This document shows positions 42,975 to 50,858 of a DNA stretch of 64,000 nucleotides, in pieces. Each line of letters opens with the position of its first letter. Position 1 is the stretch's first letter. Position numbers and translations under genes: made by a program. The notes beneath the pieces are model-generated. The model was not told the DNA's origin. It was given only the letters and a program-made list of their open reading frames with translations, and made no database searches. Source of the DNA: Oligella ureolytica DSM 18253 (lineage in GTDB: Bacteria; Pseudomonadota; Gammaproteobacteria; Burkholderiales; Burkholderiaceae_B); contig NZ_KB892280.1 of assembly GCF_000373745.1 (NCBI RefSeq), positions 1 to 64,000 of the forward strand, read 5' to 3'.

Positions 42975-42988
42975 TTGATTTACATCAA
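42975..42988 (+). promoter_or_regulatory. FNR box upstream of fnr
   Basis: TTGATTTACATCAA matches the FNR/ANR consensus TTGAT-N4-ATCAA at all ten fixed positions. It lies 76 bp ahead of the fnr start, with possible -10 elements (TAAAAT near 43006, TACGAT near 43017), so Fnr probably controls its own gene. Confidence 0.82.
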
Positions 42989-43850: not shown

Positions 43851-44150
43851 TTATTCCTTATCCTGCTTAAACTGCTCTCGCAAATGCTCAGGAATCGGTC
43901 TATCGACAGCTGGCTTAAAACTAGACTGATCGATTGCGCCACTTCGTGTCGTCATTAAGCCTTGACGATTTTGCTGATTCACTAATGGCGTATCTTTGTG
44001 CTGAGTAAAGGCAAGATAAATAGTAATGGCACAACCAACAATGACAATCGCCGGACCGGCCATCAGTAACCATGGCCAACGATGCTTATACCACGGTCCA
44101 CTGGTGTCCTGTTCTGTAGAGTTTGATTGACTTACTTCTTTTAATGACAT
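43851..44150 (-). CDS. ccoH: Short CcoH/FixH-like membrane protein
   Basis: 99 residues. PWYKHRWPWLLMAGPAIVIVG (one membrane helix, about 19-48; motif shown nearly whole) is the FixH/CcoH N-terminus of beta-proteobacteria. Full FixH proteins run to 150-200 residues with a periplasmic beta domain; here only ~45 residues follow the helix and that domain is missing. The usual ADDYYKQGL after the helix reads VNQQNRQGL. CcoH helps assemble the cbb3 oxidase and contacts CcoI. It follows ccoG by 13 bp. Confidence 0.7.
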   Translation of the reverse strand: MSLKEVSQSNSTEQDTSGPWYKHRWPWLLMAGPAIVIVGCAITIYLAFTQHKDTPLVNQQNRQGLMTTRSGAIDQSSFKPAVDRPIPEHLREQFKQDKE

Positions 44151-44163
44151 AAAAACACCTTAA

Positions 44164-45714
44164 CTATTTGGGCACAAAGAAACTACTTGATTTATCAATG
44201 GTTAGCTCTTTGCCTTCGTCAATGCTGCGAACATTAAAGTCCATATCATAGCGACCGACATCATTACCCTCTACGGGTGTACGTACAACCACTGGAATCC
44301 ACTGATTAGTTCTTGGCGATACCATGGTGATATTTGAACCAGAGTTATCAAGATCCACTTCTAGAGAGCTTAGACCATCAGCTTCTGCATCAATCGCAAA
44401 CTGGCGTGTCTCAGGACTCATATTAACCAATAACACACGATAAACGTTTTCGTAGTAACCACCCGGCACTTCTCGTCCTAAGGAGTTACGGTCGCGAACC
44501 ACATCGAAACGCAATTCATTGCGTAAAGCAAGAGAGGTAACAATACCCGTAATGAAAATCACTAGCAAGGTTAAGTATACTAAAGTGCGTGGTTTAAATA
44601 AACGCTTGCGCTCTTCTTTTTTGCTTAAACCCATTGAGATACTATTCTCAGACGTGTAGCGAATTAGGCCTTTCGGATAATTCATCTTTTCCATAACATC
44701 ATCACAGGCATCAATACAGGCTCCACAACCGATACACATATACTGTAAACCATTACGAATATCAATACCGGTCGGGCAAACTTGGACACAGAGCGTACAG
44801 TCTATACAATCACCAAGCCCTAACTCGGTTGGGTCTGCTTTTTTAGAACGCTTACCTCGAGGCTCACCACGCTTCTGATCATAGGTAACAATCATCGTAT
44901 CAGCATCCACCATCACACTCTGAAAGCGTGCATAGGGGCACATATAACGGCACACATTTTCTCGTAAGAAGCCGGCCGCAATCCAACAGAAACCGCCATA
45001 AAGGAAGATCCAAAACCATTCCCAGAAGCTAAGTTCTAATTTCAAGAGACTTGGGAAGAGCTCACGTATTGGCGAGAAATAAGCAACAAAAGTAAAGCCT
45101 GTCCAGAAACCGACCAAAAGCCATAAAACGTGTTTGGTCGTTTTAATGCGGAATTTACGGGGGCTCATCGGTTCTTCGTCAAGGCGCATACGCTGCATGC
45201 GGTCACCCTCAACCCACTTCTCGATATGCATAAAGATTTCGGTATAAACCGTCTGCGGACAGGCGTAGCCACAGAAAAGCCGCCCTGCTATTGCGGTAAA
45301 TAAGAAAAGCCCGTAAGCCGAAACAATTAAAATAATTGCCAAATAAAATACGTCTTGAGGCCAAAGAACAAGACCAAAAAAATAGAACTTACGCTCTACT
45401 AAATCAAAAAGAACAATTTGACGACCATCCCAGTTTAACCACGGCAACCCATAAAAAAGAATTTGTGTAAACCAGATCATAGCAACGCGCCAGTTATTAA
45501 ATCGGCCTTTAACCGAGCGCATATAAATCTTTTGTGATAGGTCGACAAACTCGATTTCATTTTCATCGAGACTTGTTGGAATATGGCCTGCCGCGACTGT
45601 TTTAGGTTTAGGCCTAGGTCTTGTTTGATCTATTTTTTTTGTGGGTTGTGGCGGCTGCCATTCAGGTGCTTCCTGAGAGTTTTCAGGAATGCTAGGAGAT
45701 TTTTTTTCGCTCAT
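44164..45714 (-). CDS. ccoG: Cytochrome c oxidase accessory protein CcoG (polyferredoxin)
   Basis: 516 residues. Several N-terminal membrane helices (about 75-260, including GRLFCGYACPQTVYTEIF) are followed by two [4Fe-4S] binding clusters, CIDCTLCVQVCPTG and CIGCGACIDACDDVM, then another membrane helix and a periplasmic Ig-like C-terminal domain. CcoG/RdxA/FixG is thought to reduce Cu(II) for cbb3 oxidase assembly. The start has a promoter at 45763-45791 upstream. Confidence 0.93.
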   Translation of the reverse strand: MSEKKSPSIPENSQEAPEWQPPQPTKKIDQTRPRPKPKTVAAGHIPTSLDENEIEFVDLSQKIYMRSVKGRFNNWRVAMIWFTQILFYGLPWLNWDGRQIVLFDLVERKFYFFGLVLWPQDVFYLAIILIVSAYGLFLFTAIAGRLFCGYACPQTVYTEIFMHIEKWVEGDRMQRMRLDEEPMSPRKFRIKTTKHVLWLLVGFWTGFTFVAYFSPIRELFPSLLKLELSFWEWFWIFLYGGFCWIAAGFLRENVCRYMCPYARFQSVMVDADTMIVTYDQKRGEPRGKRSKKADPTELGLGDCIDCTLCVQVCPTGIDIRNGLQYMCIGCGACIDACDDVMEKMNYPKGLIRYTSENSISMGLSKKEERKRLFKPRTLVYLTLLVIFITGIVTSLALRNELRFDVVRDRNSLGREVPGGYYENVYRVLLVNMSPETRQFAIDAEADGLSSLEVDLDNSGSNITMVSPRTNQWIPVVVRTPVEGNDVGRYDMDFNVRSIDEGKELTIDKSSSFFVPK

Positions 45715-46012: not shown

Positions 46013-46933
46013 TCATTTATTGTTAGATAAACCCCAAACATAAGCGGTTAAAACATCAATCTGTTCAGGTGTTAAATAGTCTTTTTGTGGAGGCATAATA
46101 TTCATACGACCTTCCATAATGGTGCGAACAATTGCGGCATGAGACGAACTACCTAACCAGATATCATCAGTTAAGTTAGGAGCACCGAGCATCTGATTAC
46201 CCTTAGCGTCCACACCATGACAGGCCACACAAACAACGCCAAACTGCTGCTGTCCCTTGGCAATAAGCGTGGCATCAGCACTCAATCCCGACAATGAACG
46301 AACATAATGAGCAATCGCATTAGCGTTAGCATTTTGTTCGCCGGCAGTGTCACCTAGAGCACCACCTAAAGGCGCCATGATACCTACACGTCCATTAGTA
46401 ATGACATTATGAATATACTCAGGCGTATCGCCACCCAACCAATCATTGTCGGTTAAGTTAGGAAAGTCCGTTGATCCTCTAGCATCAGAACCATGACACT
46501 GAGCACATGTATTTAAGAATAAACGCTCACCAATTAAACGAGCTTCAGGATCTTTTGCAAGGTCCTCAGTAGTCATCCCCTCAAAACGGGCATAAACCGG
46601 CGCAATCGCTTCACGTAATTGTTGCTGGTTTTGGACGACCTGCTCAGCCGCACTCCAACCTCTTAAACCGCCCCAACTACCCAATGCCGGGTATAAAACC
46701 ATGATACCAATACCAATGACACTAAGGCCTAGGTACATAACAATCCACCAACGAGGTAGCGGATGGTTTAGCTCCCTAATACCATCCCATTCATGTCCGG
46801 TATCTTCGGTAACAACAGTTTTTTGCCCTAGCCATGAACGCTGAGTCCATAACAACCACAGTACAAAAACTACACCTAAGATTGAAATGATCGTGACCCA
46901 GGCACTCCAGCCACTATTAACAAAATCACCCAT
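46013..46933 (-). CDS. ccoP: cbb3-type cytochrome c oxidase subunit III (dihaem CcoP)
   Basis: 306 residues. Two N-terminal membrane helices precede two c-type haem sites, CAQCHG and CVACHG, each with a downstream Met ligand region (IMAPLGG and NIMPPQK). CcoP relays electrons to CcoO and CcoN. The start ATG 46933 overlaps the ccoQ stop in ATGGGTGA; the frame is open 24 bp further but coupling favours this start. Last gene of ccoNOQP. Confidence 0.95.
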   Translation of the reverse strand: MGDFVNSGWSAWVTIISILGVVFVLWLLWTQRSWLGQKTVVTEDTGHEWDGIRELNHPLPRWWIVMYLGLSVIGIGIMVLYPALGSWGGLRGWSAAEQVVQNQQQLREAIAPVYARFEGMTTEDLAKDPEARLIGERLFLNTCAQCHGSDARGSTDFPNLTDNDWLGGDTPEYIHNVITNGRVGIMAPLGGALGDTAGEQNANANAIAHYVRSLSGLSADATLIAKGQQQFGVVCVACHGVDAKGNQMLGAPNLTDDIWLGSSSHAAIVRTIMEGRMNIMPPQKDYLTPEQIDVLTAYVWGLSNNK

Positions 46934-47111
46934 GATCCTTGTCCTTGCGCTGTTCATCAGCGCTTAAATTTATTTCGTCCTCTAGACTAAACGGTAGTTG
47001 AGCCGCTTCGTCATTATCTTTGCGGCGTTGCTTAGAAAAAGCCCACCATACAATTCCGAAAAAAACAATGATTGCGAGAATAGTCGCAATACCGTTAAGC
47101 GTGCCCAACAT
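46926..47111 (-). CDS. ccoQ: cbb3-type oxidase subunit CcoQ
   Basis: 61 residues: one membrane helix (about 5-26, TILAIIVFFGIVWWAF) and a charged cytoplasmic tail, as in CcoQ/FixQ, which stabilises CcoP in the oxidase. It sits between ccoO and ccoP as usual. Confidence 0.88.
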   Translation of the reverse strand: MLGTLNGIATILAIIVFFGIVWWAFSKQRRKDNDEAAQLPFSLEDEINLSADEQRKDKDHG

Positions 47112-47131: not shown

Positions 47132-47815
47132 TTACTCTGCATCAGCGACAGTATCACGCTGACGCCATGCATTCATATAACCAACACCTAAACTCTGAAG
47201 ATAGGCAACAACCGCATCTTCTTCAGTTTTACCGACTAAAAGATTTGGTGCGTTAGCAATCTCTTCTTCGGTATACATAGGCTTATTATCGTGGTGATTA
47301 CCTAACCAGTTAAGCGCTCTCATACGAGCCTGAACATCGTGGTGCTCTACACTCTTGTGCTGCAACCAAGTATAGGCAGGCATATTAGACTCAGCCACAA
47401 CATCACGGGGGTTACGTAAATGAACACGATGCCATTCGTCTGAATAACGACCTCCAACACGAGCTAAGTCAGGACCCATGCGACGAGAACCCCATAGGTG
47501 AGGATAATCATACACAGTCTCGCCCGCCTCAGAGTAAGGACCATAACGGTGCACATCAGAACTAAGCAAACGGATTTGCTGTGTATGACAGCCTACACAC
47601 CCCTCTTTGATGTAAATATCACGACCGATCAACTCTAATGGTTGGTGAGGTTTCACACCTGGCGAAGGCTCGGTCGTTGAGTGCTGGTGGAACAATGGAA
47701 TAATTTGCACTAGACCTGACACTGCTACCGTTAAAAAAGTACAAGTAATCAGTAGCGGCAGATTTCTCTCAAGCATCCCATGAGAGAAAAACTTAACTTT
47801 TTTATCATCAGACAT
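47132..47815 (-). CDS. ccoO: cbb3-type cytochrome c oxidase subunit II (monohaem CcoO)
   Basis: 227 residues. One N-terminal membrane helix (about 18-42) is followed by a c-type haem domain with CVGCH at 73-77 and the Met ligand in SNMPAYTWL. The conserved RYGPYSEAGE and GPDLARVGGRYSDEWH segments are present. Receives electrons from CcoP. 24 bp after ccoN. Confidence 0.96.
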   Translation of the reverse strand: MSDDKKVKFFSHGMLERNLPLLITCTFLTVAVSGLVQIIPLFHQHSTTEPSPGVKPHQPLELIGRDIYIKEGCVGCHTQQIRLLSSDVHRYGPYSEAGETVYDYPHLWGSRRMGPDLARVGGRYSDEWHRVHLRNPRDVVAESNMPAYTWLQHKSVEHHDVQARMRALNWLGNHHDNKPMYTEEEIANAPNLLVGKTEEDAVVAYLQSLGVGYMNAWRQRDTVADAE

Positions 47816-49312: not shown

Positions 49313-49623
49313 AGTACCTTCCTCTTTAAAAACAAAAACTTATTACTGCTATGTAAATCGTATTGTGAACTTATCACGTCAAAGCTAGCTTAATAAGAGC
49401 GAAACAAACTGCTTTGTAACAAAAATTTAGTGTTAATTACCACTTATATTACTACAAAAAAGCTGCTTTTTGTAGATTGCTTTCCGCCCCAAGCTGAGCA
49501 AATCAATCATTTGAACGTGATATTAACTCAAATAGAAATGACTTTTATTTTATTTTTCATTGAAAGTTGATTTAATTCAAATCACTTTATTATTATTTTA
49601 TGTTTTAACGAAACATCGCTAAA
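49313..49623. other. 311-bp gap between ccoS and ccoN: control region of ccoNOQP
   Basis: No gene seen. It holds an FNR-type box at 49567-49580, an inverted repeat at 49452-49475 (CTACAAAAA / TTTTTGTAG around 6 nt) that may be an attenuator or leader hairpin, and the ccoN ribosome binding site. Confidence 0.6.
49567..49580 (-). promoter_or_regulatory. FNR-type box upstream of ccoNOQP
   Basis: On the minus strand TTGAATTAAATCAA matches TTGAT-N4-ATCAA with one mismatch. It lies 255 bp ahead of ccoN and 44 bp after the ccoS stop codon. No convincing -10 sits at exact class II spacing (TAAAAT is close), so the role is inferred from the gene set. Confidence 0.55.
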
Positions 49624-49812
49624 TTACTTATTTGCCTGCTCATCACGCTCATTGCTAACCAAATGACTTGTATTGTCATCATCCAACAGAATTGAATCAC
49701 CTTTTTCATCAATATCATCATATTGGCCCTTAAAAATAGCCCAATATAAAAAATAACTGATAAAGGCAATAAAGCCCACAGCGAGCGAGCCAAGAATCAT
49801 ATAGATTTTCAT
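49624..49812 (-). CDS. ccoS: cbb3-type oxidase assembly protein CcoS
   Basis: 62 residues: one N-terminal membrane helix, then FKGQYDDIDEKGDSILLDDD, the family signature (G-Q-F-D-D-L...I-L-x-D-D). CcoS is needed for haem b and copper insertion into the oxidase. It follows the stripped ccoI by 29 bp, the normal ccoI-ccoS order. Confidence 0.88.
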   Translation of the reverse strand: MKIYMILGSLAVGFIAFISYFLYWAIFKGQYDDIDEKGDSILLDDDNTSHLVSNERDEQANK

Positions 49813-49841: not shown

Positions 49842-50858
49842 TTAGGCAACAGTCAGACGCTCGTCATTGGATAAACGCAGCTGAATCACCTCAAGTTCTT
49901 TACGGAAACGCTTATACAGACGCAGTCCCATCAAACCGACCCACAATGAAGAAACAAACATAATAATAGCGGCTAACCAAGGCGAAACAATACCTATCAT
50001 TGCGAAAGGTGCCATTAAGAGATGAAAGACAATCGAAACATTTAGACAAAAACGTGCCGTTTTTCTGGTGCGTGCCAATACAGACTCAGAAAACTCTAAA
50101 TCAATCTCAGTATCTTGTCGGTGATTTAATAAAATAGTACGTGCTGCAGCGTAGGCCGTAGGTACCGACATCGCCATTGCACACGGACAGCTCATAACAA
50201 ACAACGATACCGTCACCGCGAGCGCATGGGATTGATCAATATAAAAATACCAAACTAAGCCGCTGATAACCGCTAAAACTATTTGCAATATAACAAAATA
50301 AAATGCGTATCTGTCAGAATGTGCTGTATCTAGGCTACGGTACTGATTAATTTTGTCCAACAAAGCACTGTCATTTGATATATAAGAGGATTGAACCGCA
50401 ATATACTCTAAATACCTTGCCGTTAATAGAAAAGCAATAAACATGGCGATCGAGTCATAATAAACTTCACCATGGTGATAAAGCGTTGTGTGCACACTGG
50501 GTATAAAAGCAACAATGATACCCAAGGTCACAGGTAAATTCATGTTAATCATGCCATGACGATGACTAAAATCACGATCCGCACCAAACAAGCCCTTCCA
50601 AATTGGCATAGCACAATACAAAAGAATAGGTACGGTTAACAACAAACCAACCCAGTTTAAGAAAACCAAGGCGACCTCTAGAGATTCCTGAATATCAGTC
50701 CCTACATACCGATGCTTAAAGTAACCCGGTGCTGCAAACATCATGACTTGCATCATAATTAGCCACGCCAAACCTAAGCGCAATACCATACGACGACGCT
50801 CGAGGCGATCTTCTTCAGGTAAATCCTTAGGCATAGCAAAGATAGAGACTGATTTCAT
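49842..50858 (-). CDS. CcoI-derived membrane protein: copper P-type ATPase membrane domain without catalytic domains
   Basis: 338 residues in one open frame. Segments match CcoI/FixI in order: LRLGLAWLIMMQVMMFAAPG (helix near 27-45), two further hairpins, VYYDSIAMFIAFLLTARYLE, then VMSCPCAMAMSVPTA with the copper-binding CPC at 224-226, and a final helix pair ending with the conserved Met/Ser-Ser of the last helix (IIMFVSSLW). CcoI is normally near 750-800 residues. Missing are the N-terminal heavy-metal-associated domain, the actuator domain with TGE (only ~30 residues join the helices there), and the whole phosphorylation and nucleotide domain with DKTGT (only ~30 residues join CPC helix and the last pair). 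It cannot hydrolyse ATP. It may be a passive copper path, a scaffold for CcoH/CcoS, or a relic; the ORF shows no decay. Confidence 0.8.
   Translation of the reverse strand: MKSVSIFAMPKDLPEEDRLERRRMVLRLGLAWLIMMQVMMFAAPGYFKHRYVGTDIQESLEVALVFLNWVGLLLTVPILLYCAMPIWKGLFGADRDFSHRHGMINMNLPVTLGIIVAFIPSVHTTLYHHGEVYYDSIAMFIAFLLTARYLEYIAVQSSYISNDSALLDKINQYRSLDTAHSDRYAFYFVILQIVLAVISGLVWYFYIDQSHALAVTVSLFVMSCPCAMAMSVPTAYAAARTILLNHRQDTEIDLEFSESVLARTRKTARFCLNVSIVFHLLMAPFAMIGIVSPWLAAIIMFVSSLWVGLMGLRLYKRFRKELEVIQLRLSNDERLTVA

Follow-up and report, generated by a model that had tools for sequence, protein, structure and literature searches.

A CcoI homolog reduced to its membrane domain in the cbb3 oxidase operons of Oligella ureolytica and other Alcaligenaceae

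How does copper reach CcoN, the catalytic subunit of the cbb3 oxidase, when the gene at the place of ccoI no longer encodes an ATPase? CcoI (also FixI or CopA2) is the P1B-type Cu(I) ATPase of cbb3 assembly and is taken to be an ATP-driven exporter. The question is raised by Oligella ureolytica DSM 18253 (genome G000; 2.67 Mb in 98 contigs, 100% complete). The window, that is, the whole stretch of DNA analyzed, comprises the first 64,000 nucleotides of contig NZ_KB892280.1. It contains an intact cco operon, the ccoI slot of which is filled by a short gene, here called ccoI':

49842..50858, minus strand: ccoI', membrane-only CcoI; 338 amino acids, 8 predicted transmembrane (TM) helices, no soluble catalytic domains
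49624..49812, minus strand: ccoS (FixS); 62 amino acids
47840..49312, minus strand: ccoN, catalytic subunit of the cbb3 oxidase (COX1)
47132..47815, minus strand: ccoO (FixO); one CxxCH
46926..47111, minus strand: ccoQ (FixQ)
46013..46957, minus strand: ccoP (FixP); two CxxCH
44164..45714, minus strand: ccoG (FixG); iron-sulphur cysteine motifs present
43851..44150, minus strand: ccoH, short; 99 amino acids, FixH profile positions 1-35 of 150, 22.4 bits against a curated cut-off of 23

ccoS lies 29 bp downstream of ccoI' and is followed by ccoNOQP, ccoG, and ccoH, all on the same strand, an order shared by ccoI' operons and the Cupriavidus operons with full-length CcoI. The CxxCH motifs of ccoO and ccoP are the haem-binding ones. 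Since ccoH matches the FixH profile over its first 35 positions only, its periplasmic domain is missing. Short frames stand at the ccoH place in other Alcaligenaceae loci as well; a tie between short ccoH and short ccoI was rejected, as Cupriavidus numazuensis (L088) has a 97-amino-acid ccoH frame together with a full-length CcoI. By what we take to be the FNR-box consensus, the window holds nine FNR-box-like sites, with 4.3 expected; one, with a single mismatch (49567-49580), lies between ccoS and ccoN, and a perfect one (42975-42988) lies beyond ccoH.

What is left of the pump? The frame is uninterrupted from ATG to stop, and its product amounts to the membrane domain of CcoI with its eight helices, without the metal-binding, actuator, phosphorylation, and nucleotide domains. 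The sole Pfam domain above cut-off is the C-terminal part of PF00122 (profile positions 99-178 of 181), a stretch that covers the end of the actuator domain, TM3, and TM4. The Pfam search of the ORF returned no PF12156, HMA, or hydrolase domain, and the N-terminal metal-binding region of CcoI (PF12156/HMA) is therefore lacking. NCBIfam gives only partial matches, far under their cut-offs, to copper-translocating and other P-type ATPases. PF00122 is likewise the only ATPase domain in 24 aligned short relatives, three weak single-member matches to unrelated families having been set aside, and a DKTG motif occurs neither in the ORF nor in these relatives. Every defining part of a P-type ATPase (the P domain with DKTGT, the actuator, and the nucleotide-binding domain) is thus gone, and therefore ccoI' itself cannot use ATP. 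The remaining parts are as follows:

50541..50543, minus strand: M106, copper-entry Met of Cu-ATPases, equivalent by alignment to AfCopA M158; 57/57 short proteins
50316..50402, minus strand: remnant of the TM2-TM3 loop, about residues 153-181, at the site of the lost actuator domain
50181..50189, minus strand: CPC motif, residues 224-226, TM4; 57/57
50055..50141, minus strand: remnant of the TM4-TM5 loop, about residues 240-268, at the site of the lost P and N domains
50022..50024, minus strand: His279, TM5, at the position of the Asn copper ligand in CcoI/CopA; H in 57/57 short proteins, N in 29/29 full-length ones
49947..49961, minus strand: MxxSS, TM6, residues 300-304; M 57/57, S303 57/57, S304 55/57

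The shortening can be read from the spacing of these landmarks. The median distance from the N terminus to a TM2 anchor is 141 amino acids in the short form and 304 in full-length CcoI; from that anchor to CPC it is 72 against 178, and from CPC to MxxSS 74 against 326 (57 short proteins and 27-29 full-length ones; anchors set by regular expressions, outliers present). An AlphaFold2 model from a 24-row alignment (pLDDT 82.8, pTM 0.80) has eight long helices, of which the second is kinked (54-82, 84-91) and TM4 is broken around CPC; residues 93-104 fall below a pLDDT of 50. Its top fold match in the PDB is the copper ATPase 4bbj (Z 22.5, rmsd 3.6 Å, 276 residues). ATP7B and HMA4 score nearly as high, and no chain from outside the P-type ATPases exceeds a Z of 9.4. 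The predicted fold is the P1B membrane bundle of eight helices, TM4 carrying CPC.

An earlier note, made from the sequence alone, had read the ORF as a CcoI that keeps its helices, the CPC motif, and the Met/Ser-Ser of the last helix, and has lost all of its catalytic domains cleanly at the loops, with no stop or frameshift, at the normal ccoI place before ccoS and an intact ccoNOQP. The Pfam results, loop lengths, gene order, and modelled helices bear out this part of its reading, and the structure prediction that it proposed gave the Cu-ATPase membrane fold. It had overlooked the short ccoH and a change in TM5.

That change emerges when 57 distinct short proteins, a subset of those detected, are compared at the copper site with 29 full-length CcoI. 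CPC, M300, and S303 are invariant in both sets, and the entry Met106 is found in 57/57 short and 27/29 full-length proteins, the entry role of its equivalent coming from work on AfCopA (PMC9433437, accessible text). The TM5 pair, Tyr-Asn in full-length CcoI (Y 28/29, N 29/29), is Trp/Phe-His in the short form (W 51, F 6, H in all 57). Gln192 of TM3 is present in 57/57 short proteins against 0/29, and Asn68 (57/57) occupies a position that is Arg in 26/29 full-length sequences. E151 (54/57) and D/N182 (57/57) are kept. For AfCopA, the accessible text of PMC9433437 reports that residues of M4-6, the YN pair among them, are required for activity and that changing them impairs Cu(I) binding. An Asn, together with Met and Ser, is described as a second membrane copper site of Rhodobacter capsulatus CcoI (PMC8475189, accessible text); judged by alignment, ccoI' would no longer have this site as such, its Met and Ser being kept and its Asn replaced by His in 57/57. 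The copper site was thus rebuilt around a residue able to bind copper and to take up a proton, which sets ccoI' apart from a dead pump.

How widely is the short form distributed? Of 61 genomes comprising O. ureolytica and its relatives, 25 carry it, all in one family, the Alcaligenaceae (f1), and the best matches in other families are open frames of about 700-950 amino acids. A profile (A1) was made from 24 of the 25 matches; L013 was excluded, its match being flagged as crossing a stop. At an E value of ≤1e-30 it matched 149 of 200 Alcaligenaceae genomes. The short ORF is full-span in 133 of these and damaged or cut in 3 (G089, G120, and G209), and 13 have a full-length-like gene (two of them, G081 and G108, fragmentary assemblies). 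Each of the 133 has one such match among the candidates scored. The search of related genomes proposed by the earlier note has therefore found the same architecture in two-thirds of the family set, a recurrence well beyond chance, in genera that include Oligella, Taylorella, Achromobacter, and Bordetella. An order-wide sample of 399 genomes yielded 9 hits, all in Alcaligenaceae, and a class-wide sample of 369 yielded only the O. ureolytica genome itself. No short form was seen outside the family in either sample, each with few genomes per family, and an origin elsewhere was rejected on these grounds. The 80 loci listed from matches in named genomes include at least 33 short ones, followed by full-length CcoI of other bacteria. 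These 33 come from Alcaligenaceae, except for two metagenome-assembled genomes (MAGs) labelled Burkholderiaceae and beta proteobacterium; the closest among those listed are an Alcaligenaceae MAG and Oligella urethralis, and Bordetella genomosp. 1 and 5 are represented. Three listed loci (L054, L055, and L057) have longer open frames because the frame stays open upstream of the match. ccoS and ccoN follow ccoI' in all 33 (ccoN is partial in 2); 31 continue to ccoO-Q-P and 30 to ccoG-H, the sequence ending before those genes in the others. Among 19 plasmid records, none covered 80% of the ccoI' query.

The short gene keeps company with the oxidase. A strong FixO match is found in 154/200 Alcaligenaceae genomes, not counting 8 weak ones with E values from roughly 1e-32 to 1e-35. 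Among the 133 short-form genomes, 132 have it; in the exception, G126, the contig breaks off within ccoN. When coordinates were compared in 44 genomes, the distance between FixO and ccoI' was 1.7-2.1 kb in 41, and the two genes were on separate contigs in the other 3. Strong FixO without a full-span short form occurs in 22 genomes: the 13 with full-length-like genes, three with full-length genes in the operon (G019, G157, and G172), three in which a contig ends at the ccoI place (G002, G005, and G181), G120 with its split gene, and G098 and G218. Neither is present in 45/200, a number that takes in the 8 genomes with weak FixO as well as G089 and G209 with their partial short genes. These co-occurrence counts are not independent events, because the trait arose once. 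A second, full-length CcoI in short-form genomes was rejected: PF12156 occurs in 7/200 family genomes but in none of the 133 with the short form, nor in G000, although it detects fewer full-length CcoI than A1 does (7 genomes and 13, respectively).

The single origin is seen in two trees. A CcoN tree built from 53 operons places all 23 with the short form in one clade (support 100/98), whose sister is a group of nine full-length operons that includes Cupriavidus and members of the Alcaligenaceae. The same 23 form one clade (100/100) in a tree of the CcoI membrane part, where the join to the Cupriavidus group has a modest 84/93, against 100/97 in the CcoN tree. (Both were midpoint-rooted for drawing, and L154 and L159 are long branches in the CcoI tree.) The stem of the short clade measures 0.92 changes per site in CcoI and 0.069 in CcoN. 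Together, the trees and stem lengths mean that the domains were lost once, that the membrane part then changed fast, and that it afterward settled; ccoI' goes back to a single loss from a normal CcoI in the ancestor of the Alcaligenaceae that carry it. One genome (G032, locus L154, genus g26) has a full-length CcoI in its operon, its genus mates G114 and G207 having the short form; its CcoN falls with those of Cupriavidus-type operons, which suggests that the operon was replaced through transfer.

Is the shortened gene still under selection? Between the window and L008, from the same genus, dN/dS for ccoI' is 0.03, at a dS of about 2, which is near saturation. Six of the ten dS values in this test were saturated, and the other four comparisons gave a dN/dS of 0.03-0.05 (cysM of L008, misaligned with a pN of 0.72, was excluded). 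These sequence comparisons show strong purifying selection. Decay of the gene is seen in G120, a single-contig genome of 4.0 Mb that we infer to be Bordetella pertussis: at about 2.2124-2.2164 Mb of contig 1 (L162), about 1 kb of sequence divides ccoI', and ccoN is broken up into separate frames. A published survey, in its accessible text, found ccoN stops in all 14 of its B. pertussis strains (PMC11257404). The joint decay of ccoI' and ccoN is what would be expected of a dedicated partner.

Could the missing domains be encoded elsewhere? Of eight DKTGT-coding sites in G000, four lie in complete P-type ATPases and four in other frames, one being what we take to be a GyrB-like protein and the other three frames of 45-179 amino acids without ATPase sequence. 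PF00122 is found in the same four pumps, in the ccoI' ORF, and in a broken P1B ATPase fragment near the end of contig C49 (L005), which has CPG for CPC and an internal stop and runs into a presumably Crp/Fnr-like coding stretch. No free catalytic subunit bearing DKTGT was found in G000, nor any DKTGT frame, short ORFs included, in the 33 listed named short loci; the search covered headpieces bearing DKTGT, and one without the motif would have escaped it. The Cu-ATPase model TIGR01511 matches at an E value of ≤1e-40 in 189/200 family genomes, 183 of which exceed the curated cut-off. Among the 133 short-form genomes, 132 have such a match, G198 alone being without. Two low scorers, G062 and G093, have an ATPase with CPC and YN. 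No CPC ATPase was found in G171 and G198, but nothing follows from this lack, as these assemblies are 84% and 78% complete. On the supply side, SenC is present in 191/200 family genomes, including all 133, HMA domains are present in all 20 short-form genomes searched, and CopZ-sized frames (<130 amino acids) are present in 17 of these 20 (none in G015, G029, and G104). Other routes can thus bring copper to either face of the membrane, and all that the short protein need do is hand it on.

What, then, does ccoI' do? The earlier note had offered three options: an ATP-independent copper path, a scaffold working with a second ATPase, and a split enzyme. Its account thus stands in part: the domain loss at the ccoI place is real, the first option is favored, the second persists as a rival, and the third fails for G000. 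ccoI' descends from a CcoI that lost its motor and was then remodelled and kept as a functional protein, as its one origin, its operon place, its conservation under purifying selection, and its retained but altered copper site show. We lean toward the view that it works as an ATP-independent membrane relay for Cu(I), favored because the copper site is both retained and remodelled. The fuller version, a relay possibly responsive to protons through His279 that loads CuB of the cbb3 oxidase within the membrane and has replaced the pump across most of the family, we put at an even chance. Cu(I) from CopZ or thiols in the cytosol would enter at the kept M106/E151 side or, alternatively, would arrive from the periplasm through SenC-type chaperones. 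It would be held by the CPC cysteines, His279, and Met300 and then be passed to SenC or straight to the CuB site, so that the relay would presumably load CcoN or its chaperone. Net flow might be driven by the sink, with tight binding at CuB, few ions needed per oxidase, and no ATP; protonation of the invariant His279 could add a further drive. In the accessible text of PMC8475189, the CPC site of R. capsulatus CcoI is essential, and neither extra copper nor more CopA substitutes for CcoI, results consistent with a membrane site that serves in delivery and not in pumping alone.

Some observations run against such a relay. A passive path alone cannot push Cu(I) out against the membrane potential, and a CopA able to pump is generally present. 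The strongest contrary observation comes from Bordetella bronchiseptica, the short gene having been seen in Bordetella genomosp. 1 and 5. The accessible text of PMC11257404 reports that ccoN transcripts are the highest of all its oxidase loci, and that no strain with cco as its sole oxidase could be obtained in ambient air; its authors name translation, complex assembly, and cofactors as possible reasons. The failure is not specific, however, since four other single-oxidase strains failed too in ambient air.

CopA as the source of energy is the main rival, one we consider unlikely yet serious. CopA would pump Cu(I) to the periplasm or pair with ccoI', and ccoI' would place the copper into CcoN. 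We know of no precedent for the soluble domains of one pump acting on the membrane part of another. The rival draws on the wide presence of Cu-ATPases in short-form genomes, and the apparent size of R. capsulatus CcoI is compatible with a dimer (PMC8475189, accessible text). Cu-ATPases are near universal in the family with or without cbb3, however, so that their presence says little, and the R. capsulatus result with more CopA speaks against the idea.

Less probable still is that ccoI' works as an importer or faces the periplasm as an acceptor, with Cu(I) entering down the membrane potential toward CcoN or the cytosol in place of CcoA-type uptake. The membrane potential favors inward movement of Cu+, and the prevalence of SenC would suit such a role, but the entry residues of the cytosolic side (M106, E151, and D/N182) have been kept. 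We regard as quite improbable a copper-independent assembly scaffold for CcoN with a copper site that is only left over. PMC8475189, in its accessible text, makes CcoI a hub in the assembly of cbb3, but CPC, M300, S303, and the TM5 His are invariant in 57/57, and a leftover would drift. A degenerate remnant, pseudogene, or assembly artefact, for which only the split gene of G120 could speak, is refuted by recurrence in 133/200 genomes from independent assemblies, single-contig ones among them, by the low dN/dS and the invariant copper site, and by the joint loss with ccoN in G120 itself, so that neither development that the earlier note named as fatal to its reading, a full-length CcoI elsewhere with drift of this ORF or a deletion in assembly, has come about. 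A split enzyme whose soluble domains dock on ccoI' from a separate gene has equally little left to recommend it, the DKTGT-bearing headpiece being refuted in G000, where every such site and every other PF00122 domain is accounted for, and the search for the separate soluble protein that the note suggested having given no DKTGT frame in the 33 listed loci.

Why does it matter? With ccoI' in place of the pump, copper would seem to be handed to the oxidase without an ATP-driven pump at that step, in Achromobacter, Bordetella, Oligella, Taylorella, and their relatives. If this is true, a P-type pump has given rise to a protein that has ceased to be an ATPase. As neither extra copper nor CopA replaces R. 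capsulatus CcoI, the data in the accessible text of PMC8475189 leave unsettled whether CcoI acts mainly by pumping copper or by placing it in the oxidase; a family that in nature has lost the motor and still has the membrane copper site pulls the two roles apart, so that the question can be tested. No account of a CcoI reduced to its membrane part, or of a P-type ATPase that is conserved while lacking its catalytic domains, was found in the open-access papers searched. A survey of copper proteins in beta proteobacteria (PMC6769254) makes no mention, in its accessible text, of CcoI, FixI, or CopA2, and CtpA appears there in the reference list only.

How does ccoI' compare with known systems? 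It descends from CcoI and holds its place, yet fails the defining features of a P-type ATPase. With CcoI/FixI/CopA2 it shares the operon place and order, being the gene of the cco operon homologous to the CcoI membrane domain, as well as the eight helices, CPC, MxxSS, and the entry Met, and it nests beside the Cupriavidus-type CcoI. It differs in having no N-terminal metal sites and no actuator, P, or N domains, hence no ATP hydrolysis by itself, and in the Trp/Phe-His of TM5 and Gln192 of TM3. The P1B-1 copper exporters of the CopA type (LpCopA, 4bbj/3rfu; AfCopA, 7r0g) share its membrane fold and most copper-path residues, whereas ccoI' lacks all of their cytosolic domains, lies in the cco operon, and has His for the TM5 Asn. 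The periplasmic copper chaperones of oxidase assembly, SenC/Sco1 and PCuAC, are unrelated in fold and bind copper outside the membrane; what ccoI' may have in common with them is the proposed exchange of ligands without ATP.
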